64,000 nucleotides of DNA, taken from NCBI GenBank assembly GCA_036362985.1, contig JAYGXS010000004.1, positions 20,422,342-20,486,341 on the forward strand. The letters are read 5' to 3'. The translations under genes and the position numbers were made by a program. Shown piece after piece: positions 1,820 through 60,900 of the stretch. This stretch comes from Ligula intestinalis (lineage: Eukaryota > Platyhelminthes > Cestoda > Diphyllobothriidea > Diphyllobothriidae). Under the pieces are notes generated by a model, which saw only the letters and a list, made by a program, of their open reading frames with translations, had not been told where the DNA came from and did no database searches. The first letter of the stretch is position 1. Every line of letters begins with the position of its first letter.

Positions 1820-1822
1820 TAA

Positions 1823-2880: not shown

Positions 2881-2881
2881 C

Positions 2882-3202: not shown

Positions 3203-3996
3203 ACAGATCTGTTCTCCTGAAACTGTCGAAGCAGAACTCCAACATCTGCAGCATACATTAATTGAAAATGAATACCCGGAAAGGTTCATCCTCAGAAATA
3301 TTGGTGAACGCGCCAAAAAAGCCTGTTACCTTAACTGCAAAAAAGAAAGAAGTGTTCATAAGACTGCCTTTCTTAGGCGATGTAACCAGCGAGCTGGTCA
3401 GACGACGCTTGAGGACTGCAATCACAAACGCTTTTCCAGCGGCGAACTTACGGGTGCTCTTCACGAACTCTCCCCTCCTACGATTGGGAGGTAAAGACAG
3501 ACTCCCTTTGAAGGCCACATAAATGTGCATTTACTCTTTCACTTGCTCCTGTGGAGCGGGATACATCGGCCGTACAACGAGGCGCCTCGAAAAGAGGGTA
3601 AGTGAGCACATACCGACCTGGCTAAATAAAGGTGAAACTAGATCGATCTCGAGTGCTATTCTCGCACATCTAGTTGATACGAACCATCGAGTCGATACTA
3701 CCGAAGCCTTTAAGGTGGTCTATAGGACACCATCTAATTTTTCCAAAGTCCCACGCCAATGGATGCTTGCAACAGCCGAAGCAGTAGCTATAAGGCTAGC
3801 AAATCCAGTGCTGTGTTGTCAGAAGACTCTGACACAAGCTCTGTCACTTCCATGGCCTAAACCGACACCACGTGGCGAAAGGATTTCGACCCTACCAACA
3901 AGCGACAATCCCTCAACCAACACGCTGACATGGCCTACATGCGAAACTGACATAGTCTGCGTTGGCCAATCAGCGCCCGTGTTTGATAGTTATTGA
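3203..3996 (+). pseudogene. PLE-1 thumb and GIY-YIG-like C-terminal domain (broken)
   Basis: Continuation of PLE-1 after the nested insertion. One frame (3262-3522) carries the linker with IRLPFLGDVTSELVRRRL, which matches the FVSLPFKSDNILNTIKRRL region of PLE-2. It ends in a stop, and the next frame (3523-3996) carries YSFTCSCGAGYIGRTTRRL followed by EHIPTWL and HLVDTNHRVD. This is the endonuclease-like domain of PLEs, with a Cys-rich segment in place of a classical GIY and an intact YIGRT. The last 40 or so residues are unlike other copies and probably extend past the original end because of a frameshift. Confidence 0.8.
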
Positions 3997-4057
3997 TTTT
4001 TCTACCTATTTAAACCTTAGTTGTTATGTACAGCGTTAATTTCCCTTGCAAATGTGC

Positions 4058-4093
4058 GGTCTGATGAAGAGTTGCTGAAAACAATTGTTTGCC
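4058..4093 (+). ncRNA. Hammerhead-like core at the 3' side of PLE-1 (degenerate)
   Basis: CTGATGA at 4061-4067, a minimal stem II (AG 4068-4069 with CT 4075-4076), GAAA at 4077-4080, a 3-bp helix III (A4080-A4081-C4082 with G4087-T4088-T4089) closed by the palindromic tetraloop AATT, T4090 at the cleavage-site position, and a 3-bp stem I (GGT 4058-4060 with GCC 4091-4093). PLEs are known to carry hammerhead ribozymes in their terminal repeats. Stem I is short and the cleavage triplet would be TTT, so activity is doubtful. Confidence 0.5.
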
Positions 4094-4192
4094 ATTAACT
4101 GACTTCGAATTCGTATAAAGCAGAATTTATTAGAACCGTAAATTTCGCCAGTGCGAAATTTGGATAGGGGCCATCCCGTAGCCCCCAAAACA

Positions 4193-4324
4193 TTCATCCG
4201 AGTATTTGTTCTGGCACGAACAATTCGTACCTTATGCTACCTGGAGGTAGCCTACATACGGCGGTCTAAACCTGACCTTTGTAAACAACTGGAGCATGTG
4301 GTAAATTTAAATCTGTCGTGGTAA
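4193..4324 (+). pseudogene. PLE C-terminal fragment (PLE-2 family)
   Basis: One open frame ending in TAA at 4322-4324 encodes a tail with LEVAYIRRSKPDLC and QLEHVVNL. It matches the last 43 residues of the PLE-2 protein (LEAACIRRFKPDLCKQLEHVVNLALPW region) but lies on the plus strand, just downstream of PLE-1. It is a separate, strongly truncated insertion or a piece of a tandem PLE array. It belongs to a different PLE lineage from PLE-1, whose own C-terminus differs. Confidence 0.8.
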
Positions 4325-7228: not shown

Positions 7229-8575
7229 TTACCACGGTAAGGCAAGGTTAACCACATGCTCCAACTGTTTGCATAGGTCCGGTTTAAAGCGTCTTATACA
7301 GGCTGCCTCCAGGTAGCGCAAGATTCGAGATGTTCGTGCTCGAACAAGAACTCGGAATGAAGTTATAGGGTCTACAGAATGACCCGTGTCCAGCAAGTGT
7401 TCTATAATAGAGGAACGAGGGGATCGGTTTTCTTGCTTGAATAACCAACTAGGCAGGTGCTCCTTGGCTCTGGCTGCCAATTGCCTTTGCGTTCGCCCTA
7501 TGTACTTGCATCCGCAAGTGCATGTGAATTTATGAACGCTGTTGGAGGTGACGTGCAAACGTAAGGCATCCTTAACACAAGGAATTGGCAAGGGCTTTGT
7601 TGGAGAGCAGAATATGAGTTCAGCAGCGTAATAGGTTCTTTCTATAGCCTTAAGTAGGCGCCTCTTAATAGTGTTTAAGATGTTATCGCTCTTGAATGGC
7701 AAGGATACGAACACTGGATTTTTAGGAGCTGAATGTTCGTTCATTTTCGGTCGCAAAGGTTTGCTATATTTGTCTACAAACTGAGGTGGATATCCACGCT
7801 TCAGTAAAGTATCTTTTAGACAGCCTAATTCTGCGTCCAAAATATCCTCGGAACAGATTTTTCTAGTCCTTTGGAAAAGGTTACATACCAAGTTACGTTT
7901 CCATTGAATGGGAACATAAATTAGATAATTTGAATACTGACCTTTCCAGGTATTCATGTGGTAGACTCTCTGTGAATTGGAGTCATCTATCAGTCTGGAC
8001 GAGTGGACGTCGAGGAAAGACAGTTGGTTATCTCGTTCTGGTTCCATAGTAAATTTAATCTTTGGATGCAGCTTGTTCATTGTGGACAATAATTTCTCAG
8101 CTTCTTTCAGGTTCTGCACAATCTTAAAAATATCGTCTCCATATCGTCTGTAGAGTGCTGTGTGGTTCAATTTCGCGAGTACTTTTCCTTCCAGATGGCT
8201 CATGAATATGTCTCCAAAGGTTGATCCAAGCAGGCTTCCCATTGCGACACCGTCAATTTGTCGATAGAATTGGCCATCAAACAGAAATTGGACATTCTTG
8301 GTACACAGGTGTAGTAAGTTCCGCAGTAGTTGCGGGGGCAGGCGTGCGTCAGACGAATAAGCACAAATAATGCCTATGGTTTCATCCAACGGCACATTAG
8401 TAAACAAGGACTCAACGTCCAGGGATATCATACATTTGTCATGTATGTTAAGCTGCCTGATCTCGTCGATAAAATGGGAGCTGTCTTTCAATGTGAATTT
8501 GGAAAATCTTTGGCGAATTGGCTCCAATTCCTTGACTAGCCAATGCGCTAGTTTATGAAAGGGTGAGTTTGACAT
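7229..8575 (-). pseudogene. PLE-2 RT palm/thumb plus GIY-YIG-like domain
   Basis: A 448-codon frame. In protein order: LDVESLFTNVPLDETI (palm motif A), QFYRQIDGVAMGS, RRYGDDIF with the catalytic YGDD at 8132-8143 (usual PLE form YVDD), IKFTMEPE and LSFLDV, the thumb with WKGQYSNYL and LKRGYPPQFVDKY, then a linker and the C-terminal endonuclease-like domain with KFTCTCGCKYIGRTQRQL, EHLPSWLF and HLLDTGHSVD. It ends in LEHVVNLALPW. The usual PLG after GS is changed to LLG. It would act as a nuclear reverse transcriptase and nickase. It is open by itself, but its N-terminal part is in other frames upstream. Confidence 0.9.
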
Positions 8576-9243
8576 GAAAGAATGGGTCGTAAAGGAATAC
8601 CGCTTTTATGGGTTTTTGGTAATCCATAGAGTCGTGGGATGTGGGAAACTCTTAGTTTTAGCGAAACAGCAGTTTTTGCATCAATCAAATTAATGTCCAA
8701 CATAAGCTTGATACTTTTCCAAACTGAATCTTCTAATGCCTTTGTTTCATCTTTGCATTTCGATTTTAGACGAAATTTACTAGAATCATTTAAGATGGCT
8801 TTCATTTTATTGGCATAGTCCTTGGGATTGAGGATAACTACTTCATGCCCTTTATTCGGTTTAGAAATAACTATTTCTGTGTGGCATTTCAACTCGGATA
8901 GAGCAATCGTATTGTCTTTGGTTATAGGAGAATGTTTTGCTATTGGAGATTTCCGGTACTGATAGGCAATGTTCACAAATTTTTCTTTCATCCATCCTTG
9001 ATCATCAATAGATCTCGGTTTTAGGTCGAACAGTTGAGAGTTTAAATCTTCGAATTGAGCTTCAACGTCTACAGGATTTATTCGATTGTTCGGCAAACAG
9101 AAATCAAGTCCTAATGAAAGAGTTCCTGTTTGCAACTTATTGAGTTGGATGTCAGAAATATTCAAGTTAAATTCATCCGGGTTTGAAGGGAAGATCTCCT
9201 CGGTAGGCTTTATACAAATTGACTTGAGTAGTTTGCGACGCAA
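8548..9243 (-). pseudogene. PLE-2 RT N-terminal (fingers) part
   Basis: A 231-codon frame overlapping the palm frame by 28 bp. It carries the pre-RT region with PDEFNLNISDIQ and VDVEAQFEDLNS, then VISKPNKGHEVVILNPKDY (fingers) and RLYGLPKTHKSGIPLRPILS. The protein similarity passes from this frame to the 7229-8575 frame at about 8560-8575, so a single-base indel separates them. The same N-terminal nucleotides recur in reversed context at 11056-11190. Confidence 0.87.
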
Positions 9244-9481
9244 TGTTTCTCTGGTCTTCCTTTTTTATGATATATGCATGTTGTATGAATATGCACCAGC
9301 AATAAACACTAATCTTGTCTAGAATGTGATTGGTGTGACGCAAAAGAGATTTCTTATGATCCAAAGACTGAATAGAATCCTCTATTTTTGACTGTGTGAG
9401 ACGGTCGAGGTTTTTGAAGGTTGGGCGTACTTTCCCACATCGAAGAATTTTGTAAAACTGATGCAACTGACGAGCACTCAT
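9173..9481 (-). pseudogene. PLE-2 N-terminal extension
   Basis: Frame beginning with an ATG at 9481, with FKNLDRLTQSKIEDSIQSL and KSLLRHTNHILDK. After about 9265 (a run of six A on the coding strand) the sensible reading moves to the next frame (ETLRRKLLKSICIKP), so an indel in the A-run is likely. The region resembles the poorly conserved N-terminus of PLE proteins. Function of this part is unknown. Confidence 0.7.
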
Positions 9482-10569: not shown

Positions 10570-11055
10570 TAACCGTTACACCATAATGCTCGTCAGTTGC
10601 ATCCACTCAGTGCCTTAAACGTTCATGAACGAGAAAATTACGAAATTAAAATTGGACAGAAATTTCATAGGTCATAATCACTTAAACTTATTAGTAAAAA
10701 AGGAAAGTTAAACGAGGTGGAGGGGGAACAGGGTAATGCACAAATCTGGGGGCTTGTAGTTATCAAGGCAAGGCCAGGCTAACCACATGCTCCAACTGTT
10801 TGCATAGGTCCGGTTTAGAGCGTCTTATACAGGCTGCCTCCAGGTAGCACGAGATTTGAGATGTTTGTGCTCGAACAAGAACTCGGAAAGAAGTTATAGG
10901 GTTAACAGAATGATCCGTGTCCAGCAAGTGTTCAGTAATAGAGGAGCGAGTGGAACGGTTTTCCCGGTTAAATAACCAACTAGGCTGATGTTCCTTGGCT
11001 CTGGCTGCCGATTTTCTTTGCGTATGCCCTATGTACGTGCATCCATTAGTGCATG
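10570..11055 (-). pseudogene. PLE-3: C-terminal/3' UTR fragment (PLE-2 family)
   Basis: Minus-strand remnant closely related to PLE-2. It contains the endonuclease-like domain (remnants of YIGRTQRQL and EHLPSWLF), the LEHVVNLALPW end and part of the 3' UTR including GGATGCAACTGACGAG. Several stops and a changed YIGRT block (near 11025) show decay. It stops abruptly at 11055, where the sequence changes to the N-terminal PLE region on the opposite strand. Confidence 0.82.
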
Positions 11056-11330
11056 AACCCGAATGAATTTATCTTGAATCTTTCTGAATTTCAATTTAAC
11101 AAGCTGCAAACAGAGACCCTTTCATAAGGACTTGATTTTTGTTTCCCGAACAAACAAATAAACCTTATAGACGTTGAAGCTCAATTCGAAGATTTCTCAT
11201 CCGTGGACCTTAACGCAATGAGTGGATGCAACTGATGAGCTCTCGAGAAATTTATGGTGCCTTTAAATTTTGCATTGACTACCATCTTAAAGTTCTCTCC
11301 GGGAACATCATGCTTCAAACTAACTGATAT
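11056..11330 (+). pseudogene. Internally deleted PLE: N-terminal piece fused to 3' UTR
   Basis: Plus-strand sequence matching the PLE-2 N-terminal region (FILNLSEFQFNKLQTE, one stop, then IDVEAQFEDF) to about 11190. It then jumps directly into the PLE 3' UTR (GGACCTTAACGCAATGAG, GATGCAACTGATGAG). The whole RT and endonuclease are missing. Together with PLE-3 this forms a head-to-head inverted junction at 11055/11056. Confidence 0.8.
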
Positions 11331-18254: not shown

Positions 18255-19130
18255 CTACCACGGCAATGCGAGAATGATCACATGATCCAACCGCTGACAG
18301 AGTTCTTGTTTTCTTCTTCATATTGCAGCGGCCTCCAAAAATCGTAGGAGATGCCCGGTCATCGCCCAAAGTACGAGCTTAAATGCAATCTTCTGCCCGA
18401 CGTCCAGTAGGTGCTTCGTGATTGATCTCTTAGGTATTTTATTTTCCGCCCTGAGCAACCACTTCGGCATATGTTCAGCTGACCGCGTTGCCAACTGCCT
18501 TTGCGTGCGCTCGATGTATTTGCATCTGCAACTACATGAAGACTCGTAAATATATTTGTTGTGGTGTGCCTAGGCAGAATGTTTTCAGTACAACAATTTA
18601 GCGGTGGAGTAGGTTCTTTCAATCGTAGATTGAAGCCTTAGTTTTCTCACGTTGGAGAAAGTAACATCCTTTAAAGGGGGGAAATGCTCACTAGATTTTT
18701 AGCCCTGATATTTCAGGAGAATTTTCTTGTCTGTGATTGCGATACTTAGCAATAAGTTTATCCGGAAAGCCGTTTCCAAAAACACTTTTGAAAAAAAGTC
18801 ACCTATTCATCGATTGTATCCGAAGAATAGATTCTAGCGGTTGGATTGAAAAGGCACAAAACCAAGTTTCATTTACTCTGAATTGGAACGAAACTAAGAA
18901 AGTGCATGTATTGCCCTTTCCACGTGGTTTTCCGACAGATGGGCCTCTGAACGGAACCATCTGCGCGCCTGCGTATACGCACGTTTAAGAAAGCCAGTGT
19001 GTCGTCCTTCTCATACTCGATTGTAAATTTGATCTTTGTATGTGCCTCATTCAGAGCTTTAAGTAGCAGTGCTTCCTCCTCGGGGTTTCCGCCTACGACA
19101 AAAATGTCATCCAATTATCGTCTATAAAAT
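18255..19130 (-). pseudogene. PLE-4: decayed Penelope-like element (RT thumb to C-terminus)
   Basis: Minus strand. From high to low coordinates: a broken catalytic block around 19120 (DDIFVV preserved), IKFTIEYEKDDTLAFLNV, KGQYMHFLSFVP, a degraded linker, then SCSCRCKYIERTQRQL with EHMPKWLLRAENK, HLLDVGQ and a C-terminal LEAAAI and LDHVIILALPW ending at the stop complement 18255-18257. YIGRT is changed to YIERT. The RT fingers and palm motif A are missing. Inverted copies of repeat R flank it. Confidence 0.83.
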
Positions 19131-19182
19131 GCAGTTTTTCCTATGTGTGTGGCTTATTTTCGTTCAAGGTTCTACGTGAAAA

Positions 19183-19205
19183 TATCTCTATCTCTATCTC
19201 TTTCC
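19183..19205. repeat. Short CTCTAT-type microsatellite
   Basis: About four imperfect units of ATCTCT. Otherwise unremarkable. Confidence 0.6.
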
Positions 19206-25086: not shown

Positions 25087-26025
25087 CTAATAAAGGCAAA
25101 AGGCAGGCATGTGAGGCAGTTGGATTTTAGCCCCATGATCGGGTTTCTCCCGTCGTTTATTGGCTGCTTCCATAAAGCGCAAGGTTCGATTTGTTCGTGC
25201 TCGAACTAGGACTTGGAAAAAAGTTTTGAGGTCAACAGAGTGACCACTGTCTAGCATGTGTTTTATAAAGCAGAACCGTAGAACCTGATTTTCTTCTTTA
25301 AAAAGACAATTAGGTAAAGTTTCAGCGGCCCTGGTCACCAATTGTTTTGCGTTCGGGTGGCGTACAAAGGCAGGACATTCTTTGTCCGGCTAACTGGAAA
25401 GACTTTAGTGGGAGTGAGGAACACTAGCTCAGCTGCATTGTACGTTCTTTCTATGATACGCTTAAATGTATTTGAAAAATTGTCCCCCTTAACCAATAAA
25501 GATATAAAACAGGCTTTTCAGAATCACTGTTCTGTAGATTTCGGTTTAGAAGAGCTGCTGTATTTTTGAACGAAACGTGAAGGAAAGGCACGTTTCAGTA
25601 GGACCTCGTTGATGCAGGCAATTTCTGCATATATGGTTTCACTGGAGAAAATATTGTTAGCTCTCTAGAAAAGGTACAGTAGCAGATTTTGATTTCACAG
25701 TGTTGGTGTGAAGCTGGTAAGATGTAGGCAGTGTGCTGTCCAGGTAGTTTTTTTCAGAAAGCAGTGCGCCTCAGTGAAACATCCTCGTCTCTGAACAAGA
25801 GGACGTCTTAGAAGGACAACTTGTTGTTCTGTTATCGTAAACTGAATCTTCAAATGCAATTTATTCATAAAATTATGAAGAATTTGGGCGTCTTTTTTGG
25901 TATCAATAATAGTGAATATATTATTCACATATCGCCTTAATATTGTTGTCGAATAAGGTAGGCCCGAGTGGAATCCTCATTGCAACTCCATCGATTTTCC
26001 TAGTAATCGTCCCTCTTTCCTACCA
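25087..26025 (-). pseudogene. PLE-5: decayed Penelope-like element
   Basis: Minus strand, from high to low coordinates: KIDGVAM and PLGPT (about 25990), a deletion, then NNIFTIIDTKKDAQ where the catalytic DD is replaced by NN, IKFTI-like IQFTITEQQ, KKTTWTAHC, LLKRAFPSRFVQKY (about 25600), FKRIIERTYNAAELVFLTP (about 25460), and LVTRAAETLPNCLFKEENQ with HMLDSGHSVDLKTFFQVLVRARTN near the C-terminus. The YIG block itself is lost. Multiple frames are used. The changed catalytic pair alone would abolish RT activity. Confidence 0.83.
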
Positions 26026-30045: not shown

Positions 30046-30240
30046 TTGACGTCAATGGCTCAATGGTTAGGACGTCTGCCCCTGACCGGCGAGGCGCGAG
30101 TTCGAAACTCGGATGCGGCAGCAATTTCAGCTGCTACACTAGAGTTGGCTTCCCGTGGCTGATGAGGGCTAATAGCCCGAATTAGCTATATCACGGTGCC
30201 TTGTCTGAGCCGGAATACTCTTATGATGTCCATTGATCCA
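30046..30240 (+). mobile_element. tRNA-headed hammerhead SINE, copy a
   Basis: Head with an A-box (TGGCTCAATGG at 30056) and a B-box (GAGTTCGAAAC around 30098-30108), the two internal promoter elements of a Pol III tRNA-like gene. There follows GCGGCAGCAATTTC, then a hammerhead-like core and a tail with CTTGTCTGAGCCGG (compare CTTTGTCGG in other copies). No ORF. It is the most diverged subfamily member, yet keeps paired stems. Confidence 0.82.
30153..30196 (+). ncRNA. Hammerhead-like fold in SINE copy a
   Basis: CCGTG (30153-30157) pairs with CACGG (30192-30196) as stem I. CTGATGA is 30159-30165. Stem II is a perfect 5-bp GGGCT/AGCCC hairpin with a 3-nt loop (30166-30178). The GAAA box is GAAT (30179-30182). 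The stems differ in sequence from all other copies but pair fully. The altered fourth base of the GAAA box probably weakens or abolishes cleavage. Confidence 0.65.
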
Positions 30241-38004: not shown

Positions 38005-38116
38005 ATAAAATAGGTCCGACAGAGCCAGCCATACTCAATCTCAGGGGTCGGACCCCCCGAGATTCGAACACGGGACCTGGGCAAAGGGCAACTAATTATT
38101 CTTCTATTAGACCTAC
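38005..38116 (-). mobile_element. tRNA-headed SINE, copy b (ribozyme segment deleted)
   Basis: Minus strand. Head with TAGGTCTAATAGAAG (A-box-like) and GTGTTCGAATCTC (B-box). After GATTGAGTATGGCTGG it jumps straight to CTGTCGG, so relative to copy c the segment from CTGATGA to the tail is missing. Arranged head-to-head with copy c. Confidence 0.75.
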
Positions 38117-38162
38117 GAAGCACATATTTTCATCATATTCCCAATCTCAACCAACAAGGTAA

Positions 38163-38325
38163 CGAGTCCGTAGTGCAATGGTAGAGTAGCAAACTCAATA
38201 ACCAAGTGTTACAGGTTCGAATCTCGGGGCTTCCGACCCTCGAGATTGAGTGTGGCTGGCTGATGACGGCTAACAAGCCAGAAATGGTCATTCCGGTCTC
38301 CCTTTAGCTTTGTCGGCTCCATTTC
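38163..38325 (+). mobile_element. tRNA-headed hammerhead SINE, copy c
   Basis: A-box TAGTGCAATGGTAGAG near 38172, B-box GGTTCGAATCTC near 38215, then TCGAGATTGAGTGTGG, the hammerhead fold and CTTTGTCGGCTCC. Non-coding. Pol III-transcribed RNA would begin near the head. This is the copy with the most complete ribozyme core. Confidence 0.85.
38254..38298 (+). ncRNA. Hammerhead ribozyme fold in SINE copy c (complete core)
   Basis: Stem I pairs 38254-38259 with 38293-38298 (6 bp, two G-T). CTGATGA is 38260-38266. Stem II is GGCT/AGCC within 38267-38280. GAAA is 38281-38284. Helix III has 2 bp (A38284-T38291, T38285-A38290) with a 4-nt loop, and the cleavage triplet is ATT (38290-38292). Every core base of the CUGANGA...GAAA...NUH consensus is present. 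Triplets other than GUC usually cleave more slowly. Confidence 0.75.
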
Positions 38326-38364
38326 AGCCTATCATGATAACCACTATATGAGTGGCTGCGCCGC

Positions 38365-38435
38365 TCTAATTGTGGGCTCCAGGGCAAAGCGGAACTTAAT
38401 TTTTCGTCAAATAGATCGGCGAAGCACATGCGTTA
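38365..38435 (-). mobile_element. SINE head fragment, copy d
   Basis: Reverse complement reads GTGCTTCGCCGATCTATTTG then AAGTTCCGCTTTGCCC, the same head as copy e at 42715. Only the 5' head remains. Confidence 0.65.
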
Positions 38436-41400
38436 ATATATTAGATAATTAAAAGGATTATCTCTAAGGAAGTTTAATGATACATCTTATTGGAAGAACA
38501 GGTAACGGTTAAAAGCCTAGCCGTCTGTTTAACCGATAGTCTGTTGCTGCAAAACACGATTACGAGGGGTTCGGCTAAGCGAGAGGTTGTCCTTTTTGTC
38601 TTCTTGCATAGTGAACATGACGTTTTACGCAACCGCTTGCAGTTAAATTTAAATGAGCATGCGCCTTTGAGAATCGACTAGAAATGGCGATGCGATATTA
38701 ATTTTAAAATGCAAGCCAATTTTAACGTTTTGAAAGAATTTATAAACTTGGATAGTTTACCAAGCGACAAATTTCAGAAGCTCTAAAATCTCTTAAACTG
38801 CTCGCTTGGATTTAAAAATCGACAAACCCTAAAATATGCATAAAAGTAAGGTGAGAGCTCTGGAAAAAAAAATTGGAAAAAAGGAAACACCGGTACGCTC
38901 TTCGACACTTTGCCCAAAGCTCTACCAAATGGGACTAGTGCATGAGACTTTTATTACCAATCTTTATAAATCTCTAGCTCCAATCACAACAATCATTTGA
39001 TGAACAGACCATTAAAAGAACTGCAAAAAGGCCAAGGTTAATGTTTCAGCATTTTGTTTAGCCACGTTATTAACATTTTTTATCACGCACAATTCACTCA
39101 TAACTGTTATCATTCAGACGACGAGACTTCATGTGGCTTTGGAAACAAAAATTTACTTTGGAAGAATGTAGGAAGCAGAGCCACAGCGAAGCAGCGGGTA
39201 GCCAGTTACGTTTTAATTTTAATTTTTACCTTCATGCCGGCGAAGGGTTTAAAGGTGTGTATTGCTTGCTTATGTGCGTAAAAAGTATAACCATAGCAAT
39301 GGTCAATGTGGGTCAATGGTCGTCTGACGTTTTTTACGGTTGGCATGATGGAAAGCAGATGACTATCCCAACTGCTGGCACATATAAAAGCTAGAAGAAA
39401 CACATGCACGGCTGAGGAGAACATATAGTCACCTCCTTGCAGACACTGTCACATGTCTTAGACCCATGTCGGTCTGGAGGGGTCATTGACGGCTTATACC
39501 CAATCACTAGTGATCTGTTTGCATTCATCCACCCTGCCTTACTTAAACACACCAACCGTGGGATCGTTAACCGTATTCAACGTTTAAAACATGTCCATTC
39601 TTGCAGCATTCAAGCACGATTTGAACCCTATAGCTCAATAGTAAACCTCGTGGCATTTTGCTTCTTCGACAAAGGCTGCCTACAACTATGGTTTGCCTAG
39701 CCTGCAGCTGTGACTAGAGCAACCAACTACTCAGAATAAAAGGGGAAAACGTGCTTCATATTATGTTTTCTACTTCAGCCAGTGGTTGAATACAGTAAGG
39801 GTGATTGTCAAACACATTCTCATTCATTATTCAGATCAATTGCTTACACTCCTGAGAGTTGGAGCTGAATCTTCAAAATAAATACTTTCAAGCAGTGACT
39901 CTGATTTTCCGACAAAAATACAGACAATCACTTATAAGACAGTTCACTTGACTGATTTTCTGATCTTCCTGGCAATAGAGTCGTTTTTACCGTTATTTTC
40001 GCCAGCGTTTAACTCCGTGGTAGCCAGTAAATACTTCATTAGGGGTACGGCTTTCCCAGTCTCCCATTCTTTGTCGCATGGCTTGCGGATTTTTTACTTT
40101 CTTGTTTGACTGCGTTTTATACCCTGCATGTTTTCATAATGAATACATTTTTATTAAGGACTGGAAATTTTTTAATTTGGTGAAGCTCAATTGCTCATTA
40201 TGGTCATCGGTAAGCAAAACTCTTAACAAATTGGCAAAACTCTCTACTGAGGCCCTCTTAAAAGAAACCATTACGGAATTCGTGGTTAAAGCTTAAATAC
40301 TTGATATCGGATTGCAAATGCACGTTAAATGAAGAAGAAATTGAACACTTGCAAGTATATTGGAGTCACTTTTAATTCAAAAAGCAATTTGCGAGCATAC
40401 GCATACTTTCAAAAAATTCTCATCAGGCCGTTACATTTATATGGGAGGGGGGTGAAGCTAAAAAGGTAAAATTGTAGGTAAATTACGATCAACGTTACAG
40501 GCAAATTCGTCCAGGGAATAAGGGAGGGCGTTCGGAGTAGTAACAAGCGGCTAATTAAGCTGTAATCAGAGAGATGGCGGAAAAAGAGGGGAGGAGGTGG
40601 CTGATTGGCCATGCCTAGCTTGGAGCTTGTAGCAGCTTCTTTTTCGCACACAAAACGTATACGTATGCCCGCCAATTAGTTTTCGGATTTCTCTGATGTG
40701 AATTTTTGCAACCTTAAAACAATCCAAGGATCACTTATAATTTTTAAGTGAACTAAATGCAATTAAACCGACCAAAATGAACCCTTGTTGCTATGTTTGC
40801 TGATGCCTATTGAACAATAAGAATAACAGACAAATCCTATTAGGAGAAGTTCGAGCATCGGCTTGCGGAACTTATTTTAAGGCAACCTTAGGCAGGCAGA
40901 ATTTAAATTAAGGTGGCCCACAAGACAGTCCTGCCAATATGTGTAAAAAATAGATAAATGTGTGAATTTAGTACTGCCGGTAAATTTGCCGAAAATCGTG
41001 AACTCATCTGATATTTTTCGAGTTAAGTTTCAGCCGCAGTCTCAGAGCACTGCAACATCTGAGGCGATTTTTCAGCAGCTCAAAGTACTTGCATGAAGTA
41101 GTAACAGTATGTCGTATTTAAATCAGATCCTCTTTCAGGTAGGATTAGGAGGCACGTATTCCACTGTTTTGCACGTGAACTAGATGAACATCATTCGCCC
41201 AGTTTGCCGATAAATGCACCCTCTATCAGATCCCTTCAGATCATAGCTGAGAACATAGACGGAGACACTGCAAGTAGGTCAGTGTGATCGATTATTCTTT
41301 TAAGGCGATGGCACAGTCTTTTCATCAATCAGAATAGCCCAATGCCATGTGGTAGATGCACTGGACCAACACGGGGCCAAATTAGAGCATAGCAGGCCTA

Positions 41401-42711
41401 ATTTGGCTCATATTTCCATGTGAAATGTCAAAAATGAGGGCATTGGTGACACGCATGAGCGCCGGCCTTTATAGCATTTCTAATCCGTGGGATCTGAGGC
41501 AGGCGTGATGGCGACTCTGGCTGTGTCTCGCGCCGGCGGTCAATCGCGCCTTTGTGGTATGTCACCGTCCACAGACGGGAGAGGGGAAAGAGGGTGCTGT
41601 AGTTGCAACGCAAGTCACGCCGCGGAGCATACAGTAAACGTCAGCGTTATTGAACATCACATTCTCATGCCGGAAATCGTTCGAGAAATCAGCCATCGTT
41701 TACGCTTAGCATGATGGCCTTCAGGGCATGTGTGATGGAGGATTTCTTTGCGGTTAGTTAACAAGTAAATGGTTGAGCTAAATCTCACGAAGTCGGTCGA
41801 GTGGACATTGAATTGCAGGAAAACTCCATCTTACCATTCAGTCACGCATAATGAGTACAGATTATTAAGGAGTAAATGGCCCCATTATTAGAGATCTGTG
41901 AAAAGAAGAGAGGCCAGTTATTGTAGATTAATTTGAGACACAGAGTTTTGCTTGATACACATCCTGTAAGGTTTCAGATAAAATGAAGAAAATGTATGAC
42001 AGCATCTAGCACGATGGGTACAGTGAGCTTTTGCAGAAGTGATTTACCCAAGACAACTCAGCGGAATAATGTAGGACAAAAGCTATTGAAAGCTTTATGA
42101 CTAGGCATAAGACAGATTGAGCAACAATCATCAGCTCATCTTTTGATGCCAATTTTCAAGAATGCATAAAAAAATGTGAGTATATCAGGGGCTTTTTGGG
42201 AGAGGTGGAGTAATATGATCAGATCCAGCAGCTGTTGAGTCACAAACTACTCGAAGAGGCTTTTAAACTATAGCCACCAACACTGCCTAAATGGCATACT
42301 GTACTGATGGAAATTTACTTGAATAATAAGTCAAGATATGGAGAGTAGATGCAAAAGTCTAAAGTTTCAGCAAAGTGAACTATGGTTGCCTGCCTAACAA
42401 AAATAAACCAAAATTTGCTGTCCCTGTATATCCTAAATTTGTCGGTATTTTCGTTCTAAACACGAAAATTAGTTTAAATTCGTAAAAGCGTCTGGTTTTT
42501 CAATGTATGACGACGATTGCTCTAAGGTTGCTACACAGGAAGTAAAAGTTGGAAAATCAATGGCATCATGATTCTGAGGCAATGCTTTGCCGACTGAATT
42601 CCGTCAATTGTCAGCGAACACTGTCACTTACGCTGAACTGATGGCCCTAATTGTTTATATAGATTGCTGAAAATACTAATTTTATTCACGTACAAAGATA
42701 CATAGATATAT

Positions 42712-42895
42712 GAATGCATGTGTTTCGCCGATCTACTAGAGGAACAATTAAGTTCCGCTTTGCCCAGGAGCTTGCAACACAAACCCTCCAGATCGTCACA
42801 TGGTGACTAGAATGATGACGGGTTATGAGCCAGAAATGGCCATTCCGGTCTCCCTTTTCTTTGTCGGATCCACCTTATATACACACATGTATTGG
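42712..42895 (+). mobile_element. tRNA-headed SINE, copy e
   Basis: Head GTGTTTCGCCGATCTACTAG with AAGTTCCGCTTTGCCCAGG, then a body with ATGATGACGG, GAGCCAGAAATGGCC and TCTTTGTCGG. The first two core bases are changed (CTGATGA to ATGATGA within AGAATGATGA), and stem I is not preserved, so its ribozyme is dead. Tail-to-tail with copy f. Confidence 0.75.
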
Positions 42896-42944
42896 AACAT
42901 ATGTATATATCTACAGAAGCAGATAATCGAAAAAGACGAGAGAG

Positions 42945-43070
42945 ACTAGGTTGACCGTTTCTGGCTTATTAGTCGTCATCATCTAGCCATATCCGATGCC
43001 AACTTTAAAAAACCTTCGGTTCGAGTCCCTCTCTTTTGATGCATAATCATTAGCAAGCCCAAGGTTCAAA
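42945..43070 (-). mobile_element. tRNA-headed SINE, copy f
   Basis: Minus strand: A-box-like TTGCTAATGATTATG, B-box GGACTCGAACC, then GGCATCGGATATGG and a hammerhead region with GATGACGAC, AATAAGCCAGAAACGG. Stem I is a 6-bp match, GGCTAG (42988-42983) with CTAGTC (42949-42944), but the first core bases are mutated. Confidence 0.7.
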
Positions 43071-43179
43071 TTACTGAGCCCTGTTGTCCTTTTGGTTGCG
43101 ATCGCAAAGAACAACTATGTTGTATGCGGAGTACTCGCTAAGATTTGGGCTCAATCTAGAGTTCTATGGGCAGGCGTAT

Positions 43180-43275
43180 ACTGACCAGTAATATCGGCAG
43201 AGGGAAATTACCGGTAAAGACAAAGTTGACCAAATGGACATTTCCGGCTCCTTAGCTCTCGCTACTCAGTAACAT
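43180..43275 (-). mobile_element. Degenerate SINE body/tail, copy g
   Basis: Minus strand shows GAGCCGGAAATGTCC and later CTTTGTC in the spacing of the SINE body. The head is not recognisable. Weak call. Confidence 0.35.
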
Positions 43276-44695
43276 CAAATCGAATGGATGATAACATTGT
43301 CTGTGTCCTATGATCAGTGGTTCGGTACGTGATTGTATTTAACTATATTGACAAATCATGCATACTGCGCTCAACTGTCACTACACGCCCGCACTCCATA
43401 TGCCCTGGTGTCTCGTTTCACGTGGCCACCAACCACTTTCTGAGAGGCAGAACGATGTCCGCATGATCGGTGGCTATAAAACTATTTTGTATGGCGCTCG
43501 GCTTTAGAAGCAAAAGCTCTGGGTATCTTCTCTTAGGAAGAATTTAGCACTAGAGCACTAGTTATCTGTTGGCCAAAACAAGTAACTGATACTTGCTTTG
43601 TTTGTCCCCATTTTGAAAAAATAGTGGTATTTAAAAAATGGAAAAATATGCTAGTTTGAAGTTATCCTACTAGTTGAACAATTTCACAAGCAGAGAACTT
43701 TAATAATTAATTATAAGTATCCTAACAAAGTTGTTCCACAGTTTTCAAATATATATATAATCTATACGGTAGCAGATATGCCAAAAACTTGTATAGCAGA
43801 AATCATCGAAAAATACTCATCTGCTGTGTGCCTTATGATTACCTCAGAAAGGAAACCTAATTCATGCAGTCGTGAGAACTAATAAAATATTTTGCATGCT
43901 TTTTTACTGCTTGCAAAGATTATGAGCACAGTTCATCCACTGGCCTAATATATCTGCCCAATCATTGAGGATGTACGAATTGATAGTTATTCAGTCCGAT
44001 AAGTTATCAAATACATCTGGGATACGTAGTAGAACAGTCATTTTGCAGAATTGCCTAGAAGTTGTGAAATGTTTTGTTTGATATGACTTACCTATAAAAC
44101 ATATAGATCCTTGGATTTGAGGATTTTTGTTCAGCAAGTGATCAAGCATGTTTTCATCTAGGTTTTGAGAGAAAATATTTGGAGTTTTGCAAAGACTAGG
44201 CTGCATTTGTACCTTTTTACCACACTTTGGTCTGGTGTTCGTTTAACAGAGCAGAATCTTTGTCGCCGACTGTATTAAAAACGAACTACTAGCCTAGATA
44301 ATGAAGAAATGAAGTTCACAAATGTTGCGCGATGAGCTTTGATAACCGGCCGTAGAGTGTGACAGGGTCTAATATAGGACAGTAACGATATTTTGTTGAG
44401 TTCGATGAGTCAGATCGTGGAGTTACCGGTCCTTCCGATATGGCGCCATGTAAAAGTTGTAACTTTAAATTTTGAACATAAGTATGCAGGCTCTGTGTGG
44501 GTAAGGCTTTATTTTCTTCGCCTGGGTACTGCGAAGAAACGTTCCAGTGTTTGGACCGTCCGGGTTTACTGTCATTTGTCAACTTAAGTCTGGGCCTCAT
44601 AATATGCCGTGATCGCACATGAGAATACGGACTGTTCCAGGGATATAGACGGCCTTGCGCTTACATCCATGCCAGTGCATATTCTCTCGTCCTAA

Positions 44696-47409: not shown

Positions 47410-47590
47410 ACAGCGAGCTCGTGGCTCAACTGTTAGAGTGTTTGACTCTGATCAGAGGTCGCGGGTTCCAAACTCGAGTGTGGCAGCAATTTCTGAAACA
47501 ACACTGTAGTTGGGTATCACTAGCTGGCGACGGCTAATGACCCAGAAATGGCCATCCTAGTCTCCCTCCGTCTTTGTCGGTAATGTCCTA
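47410..47590 (+). mobile_element. tRNA-headed hammerhead SINE, copy h
   Basis: A-box TGGCTCAACTGTTAGAG at 47422, B-box GGTTCCAAACTC (one change) near 47464, then GTGTGGCAGCAATTTC, the hammerhead region and CTTTGTCGG. Non-coding. Confidence 0.85.
47519..47561 (+). ncRNA. Hammerhead fold in SINE copy h (perfect stem I, one core change)
   Basis: Stem I is ACTAG (47519-47523) with CTAGT (47557-47561), fully Watson-Crick. The core is CTGGCGA (47524-47530), with one substitution from CTGANGA. GAAA is 47545-47548, helix III 2 bp with a palindromic GGCC loop (47550-47553), and the cleavage triplet ATC (47554-47556). The fold is intact, but the core substitution should impair catalysis. Confidence 0.65.
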
Positions 47591-48129: not shown

Positions 48130-48442
48130 AACAGGAACCGCCAACAATCCAGATGGTTTTGACACTCATTGATGAACGTTCAGAGGCCGCTAAGGGAACG
48201 CGCTTGCTCCGCTCTGCTTTGGGTCTAATTTCTCGGGTCTTGATAGCAGTAGAAGTGGCTAGTAATCTTTCGTATATAGCATTGCTGGGCAAGAAAAGGG
48301 AGACTAGAATAGCCATTTCTGGCCTGTTAGCCATCATCAGCCCGTCATACTCATCCCCAAATGGTGCACCGCCCGAAACTGTAACCTGCGACCCTTTTGA
48401 TCAGAGTCTAACACTCTAACCATTGAGCCACAAGATCTTTGC
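48130..48442 (-). mobile_element. tRNA-headed hammerhead SINE, copy i (long form)
   Basis: Minus strand: A-box TGGCTCAATGGTTAGAG at about 48425, degenerate B-box, GGTGCACCATTTGGGG, hammerhead core, CTTTTCTTGCCCAGC and a 3' body of about 150 bp (CCGAGAAATTAGACCC, GAACGTTCATCAATG region) that recurs at 49640-49800, 55375-55505 and 60600-60740. This shows the full SINE is about 300 bp. Confidence 0.8.
48303..48346 (-). ncRNA. Hammerhead fold in SINE copy i
   Basis: Minus strand: CTGATGA (48340-48334), stem II TGGC/GCCA (4 bp), GAAA (48319-48316), a helix III palindrome-like TGGCTATT and stem I with GAC/GTC preserved but one A-G clash next to the core. Core bases are complete. Stem I is weaker than in copies c and h. 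Confidence 0.65.
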
Positions 48443-48565
48443 TTTGCCGGTGTAGGCTCAAGTCTCGGGTGGTACACCACTTGGCGTTGGGTATGACTAG
48501 CTGAAGAGTGCTTATTAGCCAGAAACGGCTAGCAATACCATCTGTCAGATAGCTTAGCGTAACTT
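48443..48565 (+). mobile_element. SINE copy j (head-to-head with copy i)
   Basis: Begins CTTTGCCGGTGTAGGCTC and continues with CGGGTGGTACACC, a hammerhead region with CTGAAGA (48501-48507) and GAAA (48522-48525). Stem I is unusually long: GGTAT and CTAG (48490-48500) with CTAG and ATACC (48529-48539). About four bases of helix III and the cleavage triplet are lost, so the fold cannot cleave in the usual way. Confidence 0.65.
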
Positions 48566-48795: not shown

Positions 48796-49469
48796 TATTT
48801 GGGTATTCTTACGAGTAACTCGATGCGACTGCCATGGGTAGACCGCAAGAGAATGACGTTTAAAAGTAAACCTTCTTCAAGCATTGCAAATTGTAGTAAG
48901 ATTATTAAGCTAAATAGTCCTTTTAGTTAATTTTATAGTAAAGACTGACGCTTCTTAGCTGAACCATTGCCTACTCTGAAAAATGTGCACAGCCATTGAC
49001 TCATCGGCTTGCGTGGGTGGAGAGCTTAGATGAAAAACCTTAACTAAATAGAAAGAACGACAGCATAATGATGAGCAGACGGAACAGATTGTCTGCGGGA
49101 AGTTAACTAACATCCCACCGAATAGGTCAAAAGCAGAAATACCTGAAAGTCTTTTGGAAAGTGTATCTTGTGGTTGAATCTTGATGACATCGTAGCAGTC
49201 GGTCCTAATTTGAGGCATGCCTATTGCCGCTAGAACCAACCCGCCATTTGAGACTGTTACCAAAGTACAACAGAAGAATACCGACAGACTGGGTGGCATG
49301 CTGGTCGAGGCTAAGGAAAGGCTGGATGGTGAGGCGCAGCTATATAGCAGGACAGGTTGGAGCGAAACAAGAATTTAGTAACATCAAGTAGAACCGAGTA
49401 TGAATAGAATCGATCAATTCAGCCCTCACTTGGTTTTCGCTTCATTTCGATAGTGCATCCGGCAAAGAC

Positions 49470-49622
49470 AAGGGATATTGGAACGACCATTTCCGCCTTA
49501 TTAGCCATCGTCAGCCAGCCATTCCCAGACCCAATTGGTGCACCACCCGAAGCTCGAACCTGTAACTTTTTTGAGCAGAGTCTAACATTCTAACCGTTGA
49601 GCCACGAGGTCGCTGCATTGTC
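49470..49622 (-). mobile_element. tRNA-headed hammerhead SINE, copy k
   Basis: Minus strand: A-box TGGCTCAACGGTTAGAA, B-box GGTTCGAGCTTC, GGTGCACCAATTGGG, then the ribozyme region. Core CTGACGA (49514-49508) and GAAA (49493-49490) are intact; stem I has 3 bp next to the core (TGG/CCA). Helix III is TGGTCGTT. Good Pol III boxes. Confidence 0.82.
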
Positions 49623-49639
49623 AGTTTAGGTCGAGAGAT

Positions 49640-49860
49640 TAATTGACACTCGTTGATGCATGTTCACTGACCACTGACGGAACTCACTTGTCCCGCACTG
49701 GCTTGTGCCTCGTTTCTCGAACCCTGACAGCAACCACACAGTGGCTAGTAGTCTTAAGCTGATAGTATTGTCGATAGAAGACAGGAGAGCCTGGAATGGT
49801 AATTTCTCCTTATTTTGTCCTACCGCCATACCATTTCATATCTCACCAAATTCCCCCGTT
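49640..49860 (-). mobile_element. SINE copy l (3' body, degenerate ribozyme region)
   Basis: The 3' body of the long SINE (GATGCATGTTCACTGACCACTG region, in plus orientation 49655-49680) followed by a blurred remnant of the ribozyme and tail. The head is not clear. Confidence 0.55.
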
Positions 49861-55374: not shown

Positions 55375-55505
55375 AATAATCACTCGTCGATGAACTTTCA
55401 CCGACCACTTTCGGAACTAACTCTGCCTTGGTTCTCATTTCTCAAGCACTGACAGTATCCGTAGAGGCTATTATTCTAGGCAAATAGAACCACGAGCTCT
55501 TTGTC
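55375..55505 (-). mobile_element. SINE copy o (3' body only)
   Basis: Plus-orientation blocks CGTCGATGAACTTTCACCGACC and CTCATTTCTCAAGCAC-like match the 3' body of copies i and n. The head and ribozyme are absent. Confidence 0.55.
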
Positions 55506-56069
55506 TCTGTAGGTCAGGAGCCATCGACATTCGTTAATGAACGTTCACCATAAGCAGTCAGTCGACATTCAACCCATGAGGACACGCTAACAGCCAAAGT
55601 TTGAAAGGTCCCACTGTTGGCGAGATAACACTGTCCTCCTCCTCCTTCTCCTCCTCCAGCAACTAGAGTCAGGCTGTGTTGACTAAAACTCAGTTTGACT
55701 TTAGCTGAAATATTACTTGGCTGAAAGCAAACAGTGAATGGTGAAAAACTTCTTCATCTGAATTTAGCGATCAGCCCGTGCCTAGTATCAATAGACTAGA
55801 CGCCATTGCAATCTATAATTGCACACACACGCTCACAGGTTAAAACAGTTCGGCTGTCGGATCCAAAAATGTCCGGCGTGTAGTTCAGTAGGCCAAATGC
55901 AAACGCAGTGACCTGTACCTGAGTCAGTTTTAAGTGATGGCAAACTTGCGCTGCGTCCTCTCCTGTCTCATCCGCCGTGCCTGATGTTATGAGAAAGTCA
56001 AGAAGACCTGGAGGTGGGCGGAGTCGAGCTCATGTGACAAACACAAACAGAATTTTCCACGTGCGTATG
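55500..56069. repeat. Segmental duplication, copy A
   Basis: Matches 57410-57960 in the same order: GTCAGGAGCCATCGACATTC (compare GTCAGGGGATATTGAAATTC), CAACCCATGAGGACACGCTAACAGCC, GTCCTCC, AACTAGAGTCAGGCTG, and the 270-bp terminal module with GGCGTGTAGTTC and GAGCTCATGTGACA. Confidence 0.85.
55632..55661. repeat. CCT microsatellite
   Basis: TCCTCCTCCTCCTTCTCCTCCTCC-like run within segmental copy A. It is reduced to a few units in copy B. Confidence 0.8.
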
Positions 56070-56071
56070 TA

Positions 56072-57059
56072 CAGTACGCGCCAGAATTCGTGCAACATGC
56101 CGACATAGGCGAAAGACTGATACTCTTTCGCTAATCGGCATTGACTCAGGTTGTGATACTGATTATCGTGTAGTCTATTCAGAAGTTATTTCAGTCATTA
56201 TAGGATGCGCGCTTTTTAACGAGCTTACTTTTGACCACTAACAATACGTTTGTACTGTAAAAAGTAACTACTTAAATAGTATGCGTTTTTATCCTTGATT
56301 TTGATTGCCTTTATTAATTTAAATATATTTTATGGAAAACACGCACGAAAAGTTTTTTTGTAATTGTTTGTCAGAAAATTATACATTCTTTACATTTTAT
56401 ACTTAAAGACAGGGTACCTTTCGGTTTGAAAAGATCTTACAATAAGCTTTTTACAATTGCGAGGCGTTCATTCATGAACCATCGTATCCGTCCATTTTTT
56501 AATGCTGCCTATACTGTATGAAGCATGTTCCACACCTATTGCAGCATTCTATGGGAACTATTTGAGTTCTTCCTCAAAATGTAGGCAAAAACTTACTTTT
56601 ACTTAAACAGGATGTGCACAGTGCGCAGTTTGTAAACCTTGCATTCAAGTGTAGCAGTCAGTAGTTTCAAAAACAATTCGGCAATTCAGAAACTTTCTTA
56701 AAAACGAAAGATACACATTCTTTAGTTATAAAATGTAACGAAGGCATTATTTGCCACCAAACAAATGCAAGGAATAATTTTTTCGTTAACGTTTTCCATA
56801 AAATGCATTTGAATTTATAAAGGCAGTCAAAATCAGTAATAAAATGGCATACTATTTGAGTACTTACTTTTTACAGTACAAAGGTTTCGTTAGGGGTCAA
56901 AAATAAGCTCATAAAATAGCTTATAGCCTATAATGAATGAAATGACTTCAGAATAGGCTACACGATAATCATTCGTACAACCTAAATCAATGACGATTAG
57001 CGAAAGAGTATCAAGCTTTGGCATGTGTCGGCATGTTGCACGAATTCTTGCGCGTACTG
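56072..57059. mobile_element. Mariner-like miniature transposon with long inverted repeats
   Basis: 988-bp element starting and ending with CAGTACGCGC, flanked by TA on both sides (56070-56071 and 57060-57061), the target of Tc1/mariner transposases. The outer 34 bases of the two ends differ at a single position. Terminal inverted repeats extend about 375 bp (56072-56450 and 56690-57059), leaving about 240 bp of centre. No transposase is encoded, so it depends on one elsewhere. Related fragments lie at 16545-17050 and 5690-6590. It is the only complete copy in the window. Confidence 0.88.
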
Positions 57060-57061
57060 TA

Positions 57062-57300
57062 ATTGACTCCAGTGCGATTTGCCATTATACACACGTTAAG
57101 ACCGTTCTACCTTCGAATCCGATGATGTCCACCGCATATTGCAGCAGGCTGAAGCCATACAAAATGACTTGTACGTTTGGGTTAAGTTTCAGTAATAGCA
57201 GACCTGCGTTGCATTTACCGCACTCTCTATTGCCTCATCCGCCTTTACCTGATGTCATGAGGAAGGCAAGAAGACCAGGAGAAGTGACGGGGTCACGCAT
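57062..57300. repeat. 270-bp module, partial copy
   Basis: Shares CACACGTTAA, TTCGAATCC, GATGATGTCCACC, GCAGGCTGAAGCCATAC and CTGATGTCATGAGGAAG with 57960-58240, and less closely with the ends of segmental copies A and B. It lies directly right of the mariner-like element. Confidence 0.8.
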
Positions 57301-57425
57301 ACAGTGCCAGTCAGCTATACCCAGACCCAAGTGGTACCCCACCCGAGGTTCGAATCCGCAACTATTTCGATCAGAAGCCTAGCACTTTAATCATTGAGCA
57401 AAAGGTCTGTGTCGTTTTAGGTCAG
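57295..57425 (-). mobile_element. tRNA-headed SINE, copy m (ribozyme deleted)
   Basis: Minus strand: A-box-like TTGCTCAATGATTAAAG, good B-box GGATTCGAACCTC, GGTGGGGTACCACTTGGG, then GCTGACTGGCAC where the ribozyme would follow. Truncated at that point. Confidence 0.75.
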
Positions 57426-57960
57426 GGGATATTGAAATTCGTTGATGAACCTTCACAATAAGCAATTAGTAGAAATTCAACCCATGAGGACGCGCTAACA
57501 GCCGAAATTTGAAAGGTCCTACTGTCGGTGAGATAACTCTGTCCTCCGCCTGCAACTAGAGTCAGACTGCGTTGACTAAAATGCAGTCTGACTTTGGCTG
57601 AATTCTTTCTTGTTTAAGATCAAACAGTGAAGGCACAAACATTTGCTCCTCTGAATTTAGAGATCATACCTTACCTAGTTTACATAAACTGGACTCCAGT
57701 GCAATTTATCACTGCACACATACACACGTTAAAATACATCGACCGTCGAATCCAGAGATGCCTAGCGTGTAGTTCTGTTGGCTGAAGCCAAATGCAGTGG
57801 CCTGTGCGTGAGGGATAGCAAACTTCTACTGCATTTATTGCGTCCTCTTCTTCCTCACCCGCTCGTGTCTGATGCCATTAGAAAGTCTAGAAGACCCGGA
57901 GGAGGGCGGGATTGAGCTCATGTGACACACACAAACAGCACTTGCCAGGTGCGTGTAGAC
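57410..57960. repeat. Segmental duplication, copy B
   Basis: Second copy of 55500-56069, similar throughout. Confidence 0.85.
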
Positions 57961-58240
57961 TTGATACAGTATAATTTGCCACTACATGCACGTTAAAACC
58001 ATTTGATCTTCGAATCCGACGATGTCCACCACATGTTTAAGCAGGCTGAAGCCATACGCAATGACTTGTGCGTGTGGGTTAAGTAAAAGCACACCTGCGT
58101 TGCATCTACCGCACCCTCTATTCCCTCATCCGCCCGTACCTCAGTGTCATGAGAAAGTTAAGGAGACCGGAGGGTGAGGGGGCCAGGATGACACGCGCAT
58201 GTGACACGTATGTGCTGCGCCCTGATCATGCAAGGTACCA
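57961..58240. repeat. 270-bp module, further copy
   Basis: Continues directly from copy B; closest to 57062-57300. Confidence 0.8.
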
Positions 58241-60599: not shown

Positions 60600-60900
60600 T
60601 TAAATGAGTCCTTCATCTGTTGAAGCACTTTCACCGACCGCTGACAGAACCTACTTACCCCGCTCCGTCTCTGCCTCGGGCCTCATTTTTCGGGCCCTGA
60701 AAACAGCCATAGCAGTCAGTAGAATAGGACGATAGTATTGCCGGCAAAGACCAGAAAGTCTGGACTAGCCATTTCTGGCTTCTTAGTCGTCGTCAGCCAG
60801 TCGTACCCGATCCCAAAAGTGCACCCCACGAGGCTCAAACTCGTGCCCTTGTGGTCAAAGTCTCAACCCCTAACCATTGAATCATGTAGTCGTTGACTTT
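60600..60900 (-). mobile_element. tRNA-headed hammerhead SINE, copy n (long form)
   Basis: Minus strand: A-box-like TGATTCAATGGTTAGG, degenerate B-box (GAGTTTGAGCCTC), GGGGTGCACTTTTGGG, ribozyme region, CTTTGCC and the 150-bp 3' body. Core CTGACGA (60796-60790), GAAA (60775-60772), stem I CTGG/CCAG (60797-60800 with 60760-60763). The cleavage-site bases are altered (TAGT). Confidence 0.8.

Follow-up and report, generated by a model that had tools for sequence, protein, structure and literature searches.

The genome of the tapeworm Ligula intestinalis harbors a non-coding family of tandem units of approximately 309 nt that combine a tRNA-like head with a hammerhead-type motif, and this family was probably spread by a reverse transcriptase of Penelope-like elements (PLEs) that copied its RNA, which is predicted to cleave itself and to be multimeric or circular, into AT-rich targets. 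The window, i.e. the whole stretch of 64,000 nucleotides that was analyzed, corresponds to C4:20422342-20486341 of a 644-Mb assembly, and family copies were searched across this assembly. A preliminary description had interpreted the repeats of the window as a SINE family with a hammerhead in its body; the repeats do form a family in which a tRNA-like head precedes a body of the hammerhead type, but it proved to be a tandem unit and not a SINE.

In its first round, an iterated nhmmer profile built from positions 38163-38440 yielded 15 family matches in the window (E<1e-6), the self-match included. All previously named copy places (30.05, 38.0-38.4, 42.7-43.3, 47.4, 48.2-48.5, 49.5-49.8, 57.3 and 60.7 kb) were recovered by the profile, and the repeat family in the window is real. 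The window copies are old members of the family and younger ones are found elsewhere in the genome. The following copies were delimited:
38075 to 38437, plus strand: copy c, 363 nt or 1.2 units, with linker, tRNA-like head, hammerhead and second linker
38024 to 38079, minus strand: inverted arm, head to head with copy c with an overlap of about 5 nt (nhmmer E 6.2e-07)
49453 to 49816, minus strand: 364 nt, exceeding one unit; its hammerhead core lies at 49514 (nhmmer positions 249-602 of 606, E 3.1e-17)
42930 to 43281, minus strand: more than one unit, 352 nt, decayed (nhmmer positions 222-593 of 606, E 4.8e-07)
48207 to 48431, minus strand: left arm in a head-to-head pair; its hammerhead core, with U-A at 10.1-11.1, lies at 48340 (profile and descriptor)
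48425 to 48531, plus strand: right arm of this pair, hammerhead core at 48501-48525 (profile match)
42783 to 42875, plus strand: partial copy that includes the hammerhead region and overlaps with a match on the minus strand at 42709-42851
47416 to 47582, plus strand: head and hammerhead region, C at H17 and core A6 altered (profile match)
60669 to 60884, minus strand: head and hammerhead region, U16.1 altered (profile match)
30056 to 30234, plus strand: diverged copy (profile match; pairings by eye)
57307 to 57399, minus strand: fragment comprising just the head and the beginning of the hammerhead stem (profile match)

Copy c is a continuous match to two joined old-type units (the L053 unit taken twice; positions 52-414 of 606, nhmmer E 5.9e-61). 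The 56-nt inverted arm at its 5' end, delimited here as 38024-38079, spans 38023-38112 according to another profile and, as judged by eye, its hammerhead is deleted. One reading of the overlap between 42783-42875 and 42709-42851 is a head-to-head join within the near-palindromic hammerhead. The diverged copy at 30056-30234 was read by eye to contain G-C at 10.1-11.1, a stem I of CCGTGG/TCACGG, the helix III palindrome TAGCTA and GAAT in place of GAAA. A separate inverted repeat with 289-nt arms that are 83% complementary and 414 nt apart was noticed at 56070-57061, adjoining direct repeats at 55495-58141.

Copy c retains every hammerhead core base (38260-38298) and the order that had been described for the family, with A and B boxes followed by CTGANGA, the GGCT/AGCC stem, GAAA and the stem I partner. 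Its parts are all located on the plus strand:
38165 to 38234: tRNA-like head, limits by eye
38171 to 38181: A-box-like TAGTGCAATGG, by eye
38214 to 38226: B-box-like GGTTCGAATCTCG, by eye
38248 to 38302: hammerhead-type motif, predicted by descriptor and by eye
38254 to 38259 and 38293 to 38298: stem I, GGCTGG/CCGGTC
38260 to 38266: core CTGATGA
38267 to 38280: helix II, read as C, GGCT-AACA-AGCC, A
38281 to 38284: GAAA
38284 to 38291: palindrome-derived helix III (TGGTCA after GAAA)
38292: H17, a T, the last of the TT after TGGTCA
between 38292 and 38293: predicted cleavage

ARAGORN detected no tRNA in the window and none in 11 family loci, and a match to a tRNA-like family reached no more than 14 bits (E 2.6). 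The earlier label "tRNA-headed" therefore rests on the A and B boxes and on arms that were read by eye. An assignment of the head to tRNA-Gln would stem from by-eye reading and the Sm-alpha paper and not from a tool.

A descriptor of a type I hammerhead with an exact core was satisfied at three sites when both strands of the window were searched, 38260 (plus), 48340 (minus) and 49514 (minus), all of which belong to this family, and had no match in ten first-order shuffles of one strand. At 49514 the descriptor was satisfied only by a stem I partner that lies farther downstream than the family's own. Allowing one core mismatch added two more places in the window, as was also seen in shuffles. 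Young copies read GACTGG-CTGATGA-C-GGCT-AACA-AGCC-A-GAAA-TGGCCA-TT-CCGGTC and have their predicted cut directly behind the TT in ATGGCCATT. The majority sequence and copy c both contain the complete set of core bases as well as three helices. The hammerhead is not canonical and departs from the textbook form in three respects. The pair 10.1-11.1 is C.A in copy c and non-standard in 65 of 90 copies, helix III consists of a palindrome that lacks a loop, and the predicted cleavage base of the 309-nt unit's motif is U. Closing a loopless palindromic helix III takes two molecules or two units.

These peculiarities raise the question whether the hammerhead is a fossil or structural relic, formerly used by the family but inactive owing to C.A at 10.1-11.1 and the lack of a helix III loop, that is kept only within a recognition structure of the reverse transcriptase. 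We regard this as somewhat unlikely. The frequent non-standard pair would agree with it, as would the results of Rfam searches: no hammerhead was returned for the window at the gathering cut-off, for 31.5 kb and 201 bases of the window at E 10, for copy c or for a young copy. A covariance-model score no better than that of shuffled copies had been named in advance as evidence against the motif and, since Rfam gave no hammerhead score, this is formally the outcome; Rfam was equally blind to the hammerhead-like motifs of PLEs in this genome. The core is also broken in some young copies (C3 is changed in two of three L025 units and A9 in one L038 unit), and hammerhead mutants of a published PLE still insert in vitro, according to the consulted part of PMC11167929.

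On the other side, the core is the least changed part of the motif in low-scoring copies. The 132 profile hits included 103 over the hammerhead, and 93 rows were left after identical and N-bearing ones had been dropped. Departures from the all-row majority affected 28 of 260 core, 161 of 804 helix and 191 of 642 other cells in the 24 low-scoring rows (66-89 of 93), in counts that include subfamily differences and cells that are not independent between copies of shared ancestry. A smaller contrast was obtained for the 57 middle rows (9-65), with 24 of 627 core, 120 of 1931 helix and 113 of 1642 other cells, and the eight top-scoring copies were off the majority at only one of 88 core cells; rows 90-93 belonged to no conservation group. 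Old copies keep the core bases better than the remaining bases. In addition, the oddities recur elsewhere in the genome as judged by eye, with A.C at 10.1-11.1 in a second, 368-nt unit and a palindromic helix III in one PLE lineage.

Covariation was considered and rejected as proof of the hammerhead, as the signal is weak against shuffles. In the alignment 86.1% of the cells were paired compared to 85.6% in shuffles (21 of 500 as high), with 31 further pair types compared to 25.2 (3 of 500), nine pairs with double changes compared to 6.0 (39 of 500) and a covariation score of 0.114 compared to 0.110 (92 of 500). Slid partners gave 9-12 double-change pairs, no fewer than the structure, with at most 56.5% of their cells paired. 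Such weak covariation is expected of decayed copies. Dimer folding was evaluated for 90 copies, three of the 93 being too short. For the top-scoring copy the minimum was predicted to be the dimer hammerhead, an outcome seen in only 24 of the 90 copies overall, and 50 of 300 shuffles of the top-scoring copy pair as strongly as its dimer, which rules out the dimer fold as proof. A monomer fold with stems I and II was predicted for 15 of the 90 copies. A strong rod-like circular fold was also discarded (z -1.6 and -1.9, paired fraction near that of shuffles).

Searches of the assembly with two unit queries gave 3,343 and 3,726 first-look candidates, of which 40 were scored for each. Family copies were located on many contigs and were up to 99.7% identical to the reference unit. 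In many copies the linker upstream of the head is the same as the one located downstream of the hammerhead in L018, L020, L025 and L028. The copy spacing is 309 nt in L025, L027 and L020 and 300-309 nt at six more places, computed by hand from the positions. On the sequence, head and hammerhead are parts of a tandem unit of approximately 309 nt, which was mapped by phase as follows:
start of the unit: hairpin-bearing linker
phase 148: head
phase 244: hammerhead core
after phase 276: predicted cut
phase 309: 3' end

Comparison of one young and one old unit showed the hammerhead region to be the most similar part (48 of 54 bases identical), ahead of the pre-head stretch (27 of 31), the head (60 of 72) and the spacer (9 of 12). 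The tail followed with 18 of 24, and the linker was lowest with 58 of 109. The hairpin is found just after the 3' end site and reads GGTCGCTAAGCGAC in young linkers (e.g. L028); the L008 hairpin GGTCACTATGTGAC contains a paired double change relative to it, as seen by eye. A classical SINE of head, body and a LINE-type or A-rich tail was dropped on the basis of the tandem phase map.

The ends of young insertions were used to analyze how the unit enters the genome. Skipping 11 duplicate loci left 70, with L074 omitted as a near-duplicate of L073, and 29 young segments were at least 94% identical to the unit and at least 50 nt long. The loci were chosen by similarity to the head-hammerhead part, so that the sample comprises inserts with that part, and stretches of N mask some insertion ends. 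The vast majority of readable 3' ends (23 of 24) fall at two sites, 15 at one and 8 at the other, which both read CCA|TCATAT and lie at unit phases 309 and 116; the lone off-site end is that of L057 at phase 204. AT-only flanks were present at 20 of these 23 fixed ends, and young insertions mostly adjoin (TA)n. The 5' ends are scattered, with 3 of 26 at the two sites. Twelve of the 29 segments are longer than a unit, the longest with 798 nt, and reach up to 2.6 units. Ten head-to-head joins with overlaps of 1-15 nt and no tail-to-tail joins were found among the 29 segments; two of these ten, both in L017, have equal phases and may be one event that was copied. The nearer 3' end is located 33 nt past the predicted cut, and the ends therefore need no cleavage.

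It is highly improbable that the family is a satellite that was dispersed without reverse transcription, either through recombination or through a DNA transposon whose terminal inverted repeats appear as head-to-head pairs. Tandem arrays do exist and inverted arms bound many inserts, but scattered 5' ends next to fixed 3' ends, arms of one pair that differ in length and phase, and the overlapping joins of the 309-nt unit speak against it. These features are as expected of 5' truncated cDNAs.

A second tandem hammerhead unit of 368 nt, which lacks the tRNA-like head, was observed beside 309-nt copies (L027:537-904, minus strand; G000:C2:99096914-99099286). At C2:99096914-99099286 nearly three units on one strand are connected with another three and a half on the opposite strand. 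The block from CTGANGA to GAAA is identical at 22 of 25 bases between the two units, and Rfam matched the 368-nt unit to Hammerhead_HH9 with E 0.03 and 24.9 bits compared to a gathering score of 52. By eye, its stem I is GCTTGG/TCAAGT, its helix III ACAG/CTGT and its pair 10.1-11.1 A.C. The 368-nt unit behaves like the 309-nt unit in insertion and likewise sits mostly in (TA)n. Its readable 3' ends lie at two sites in 22 of 23 cases, 21 of them with AT-only flanks, compared to 5 of 25 5' ends at those two sites. Thirteen of the 25 segments are longer than a unit and five head-to-head joins, one with 17 nt between the arms, but no tail-to-tail joins were found among them. The GC content is 53.4% for the 309-nt and 50.8% for the 368-nt unit, and the longest stop-free runs in four joined units are 98 and 129 codons, respectively.

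The idea that the family is an ordinary tRNA SINE with an accidental likeness to a hammerhead, whose tandem copies arose from unequal crossing-over, is improbable in the light of these data. The A and B boxes, the lacking covariance-model score and the weak covariation could be explained in this way, but the exact-core descriptor matches only this family and not the one-strand shuffles, single (TA)n insertions already exceed one unit and have constant 3' ends, the joins found are of the head-to-head type with none tail to tail, and a second unit with another body shares the same hammerhead block and the same habits. The SINE reading of the preliminary description was accordingly not borne out, given the tandem units, insertions of more than one unit, head-to-head joins and two 3' ends mostly by (TA)n.

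PLEs are abundant in the same genome. Two PLE queries gave 35,562 and 27,017 first-look candidates, from which 93 and 150, respectively, were scored. Undisrupted frames of 811-841 aa were present among the PLE-sized places, and hammerhead-like motifs were found in PLE repeats, with pairings judged by eye. The window itself contains PLE remains of several lineages:
7229 to 9264, minus strand: PLE remains
1813 to 4324, plus strand: PLE remains
18255 to 19186, minus strand: PLE remains
25114 to 26013, minus strand: PLE remains
10766 to 11202, minus strand: PLE remains

Among the best 120 of 326 matches of the window PLE protein, the best is 80% identical, the nearest named relatives by score are proteins of Trichobilharzia regenti (44%) and Dicrocoelium dendriticum (43%), and one match labelled as a Lactococcus assembly was taken as a mislabel. 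Two CTGATGA...GAAACGTC motifs about 190 bases apart were noticed at 6102 and 6289 (plus strand), which we take to resemble the minimal hammerhead of PLEs. CTGATGA...GAAA stretches also occur by window PLEs at 7045 and 11232, where helix II is hardly formed.

In one PLE lineage all ten close opposite-strand pairs among 150 places are head to head, a count for which 107 of the 150 places were entered (contigs C1-C5 and C1672) and the rest was checked by eye with no close pair seen. This young lineage (L086:164, L088, L090, L091, G000:C5:12163779-12167549) has frames of up to 841 aa, and the other sampled lineage bears hammerhead-like motifs within its repeats. Six inspected ends revealed more than one 3' end for the young lineage, and just before the 3' end it carries the motif CTGATGA AGAGTTGCT GAAA ACAATTGT with a helix III that is palindromic by eye. 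No (TA)n ends were detected in the stretches of the two sampled PLE lineages that were retrieved, unlike for the 309-nt unit, so neither lineage is established as the helper and both were set aside as candidates.

Published accounts of PLEs agree with this picture. According to PMC11167929, a purified PLE cuts AT-rich DNA on both strands, extends each of them and initiates at two sites inside the RNA. Inverted PLE structures are described in PMC3846280 as mostly head to head, with targets rich in AT and a tail that is optional. PLEs and the 309-nt unit have in common a hammerhead whose helix III is minimal or palindromic, copies arranged in tandem as well as head to head, an optional tail that yields two 3' ends and AT-rich targets, as far as described in the consulted sections of PMC3846280, PMC11167929 and PMC7761336; unlike PLEs, the 309-nt unit encodes no protein. 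Its head-to-head 5' truncated copies, two internal start sites and AT-rich target are insertion traits of the PLE type.

By its upstream DNA that equals the downstream DNA, its tandem units of approximately 309 nt and its head-to-head joins, the family is placed with the animal non-LTR retrozymes. It shares with the metazoan non-LTR retrozymes, as characterized in the consulted part of PMC7229834, short tandem units, a hammerhead of putative type I, the lack of a long frame, many copies and coexisting PLEs. Both unit lengths, 309 and 368 nt, fall in the approximately 150-450 bp of retrozyme tandem units. Differences are the tRNA-like head, the non-standard 10.1-11.1 pair and the loopless palindromic helix III of the 309-nt unit, as well as the targeting of (TA)n, the alternative 3' ends and the inserts joined head to head. 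The GC content of neither unit is below 45-50%, a low-GC trait that is a tendency of animal retrozymes and not their definition in the published accounts. The two-ended, head-to-head, (TA)n signature is not described for retrozymes in those portions of the published accounts that were examined, and the terms "target site" and "inverted" are absent from the main text of PMC7229834. Taken together, the anatomy fits an animal non-LTR retrozyme and the DNA ends resemble a PLE insertion.

In uniting a tRNA-like head with a hammerhead within about 300 nt, the family also resembles Sm-alpha and Sj-alpha, compared here by description and not letter by letter, and Sm-alpha holds up as the natural precedent that had been invoked for it. 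We consider it fairly unlikely that the family belongs to the Sm-alpha lineage itself, as a tRNA-type hammerhead element inherited from an ancestor common with schistosomes. Helices II and III of the 309-nt unit differ from those of the Schistosoma hammerhead. Common descent would nevertheless suit the fluke proteins that are the nearest named relatives of the window PLE protein among the best 120 of 326 matches. It would also agree with the match of Sm-alpha to tRNA-Gln-TTG pseudogenes and its type I hammerhead, reported in the consulted parts of PMC2770079 and PMC8490949; the latter also lists the 335-bp W36.2 element as Sm-alpha-like. A figure in PMC4918200 already draws a Schistosoma element with a tRNA among the animal non-LTR retrozymes, and the combination of head and hammerhead is therefore not new in kind.

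For the 309-nt unit as a retrozyme mobilized by PLEs, the following course of events can be envisaged. The A and B boxes would drive Pol III transcription of tandem units, and the hammerhead would cut the transcript once per unit, in part possibly as a dimer because helix III is a loopless palindrome. The RNA may then be circularized by a host ligase of the RtcB type. Both strands of a (TA)n tract would be nicked by a PLE protein, with cDNA synthesis beginning at one or the other of two sites inside the RNA. More than one unit would be copied if synthesis passed around a circle repeatedly or proceeded along a multimer, and two growing cDNAs could meet and join via a few matching bases, resulting in a head-to-head insert. 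That the insertions specifically record, down to the base, how a PLE-type reverse transcriptase copied circular hammerhead RNA at the two nicked (TA)n strands simultaneously, with two start sites, repeated laps and cDNAs meeting head to head, is a tentative proposal to which we assign somewhat less than an even chance.

These observations illustrate that a SINE look-alike in one window can prove to be a tandem and possibly circular-RNA element, and that Rfam hammerhead models can miss elements of this kind. The enzyme that mobilizes animal retrozymes is left open in the portions of the literature examined, and PLEs are proposed but unproved helpers in the consulted parts of PMC7229834 and PMC7761336. 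The anatomy of the inserts, with a pair of fixed 3' ends, joins that are head to head, lengths beyond one unit and (TA)n targets, provides a fingerprint linking hammerhead units to a PLE-type reverse transcriptase that can be sought in any animal genome. If the proposed course of events is true, PLEs would be helpers of animal retrozymes, two retrozymes with different bodies in one genome would share a hammerhead block and a helper, and a Pol III promoter of the tRNA type would drive one of the two.
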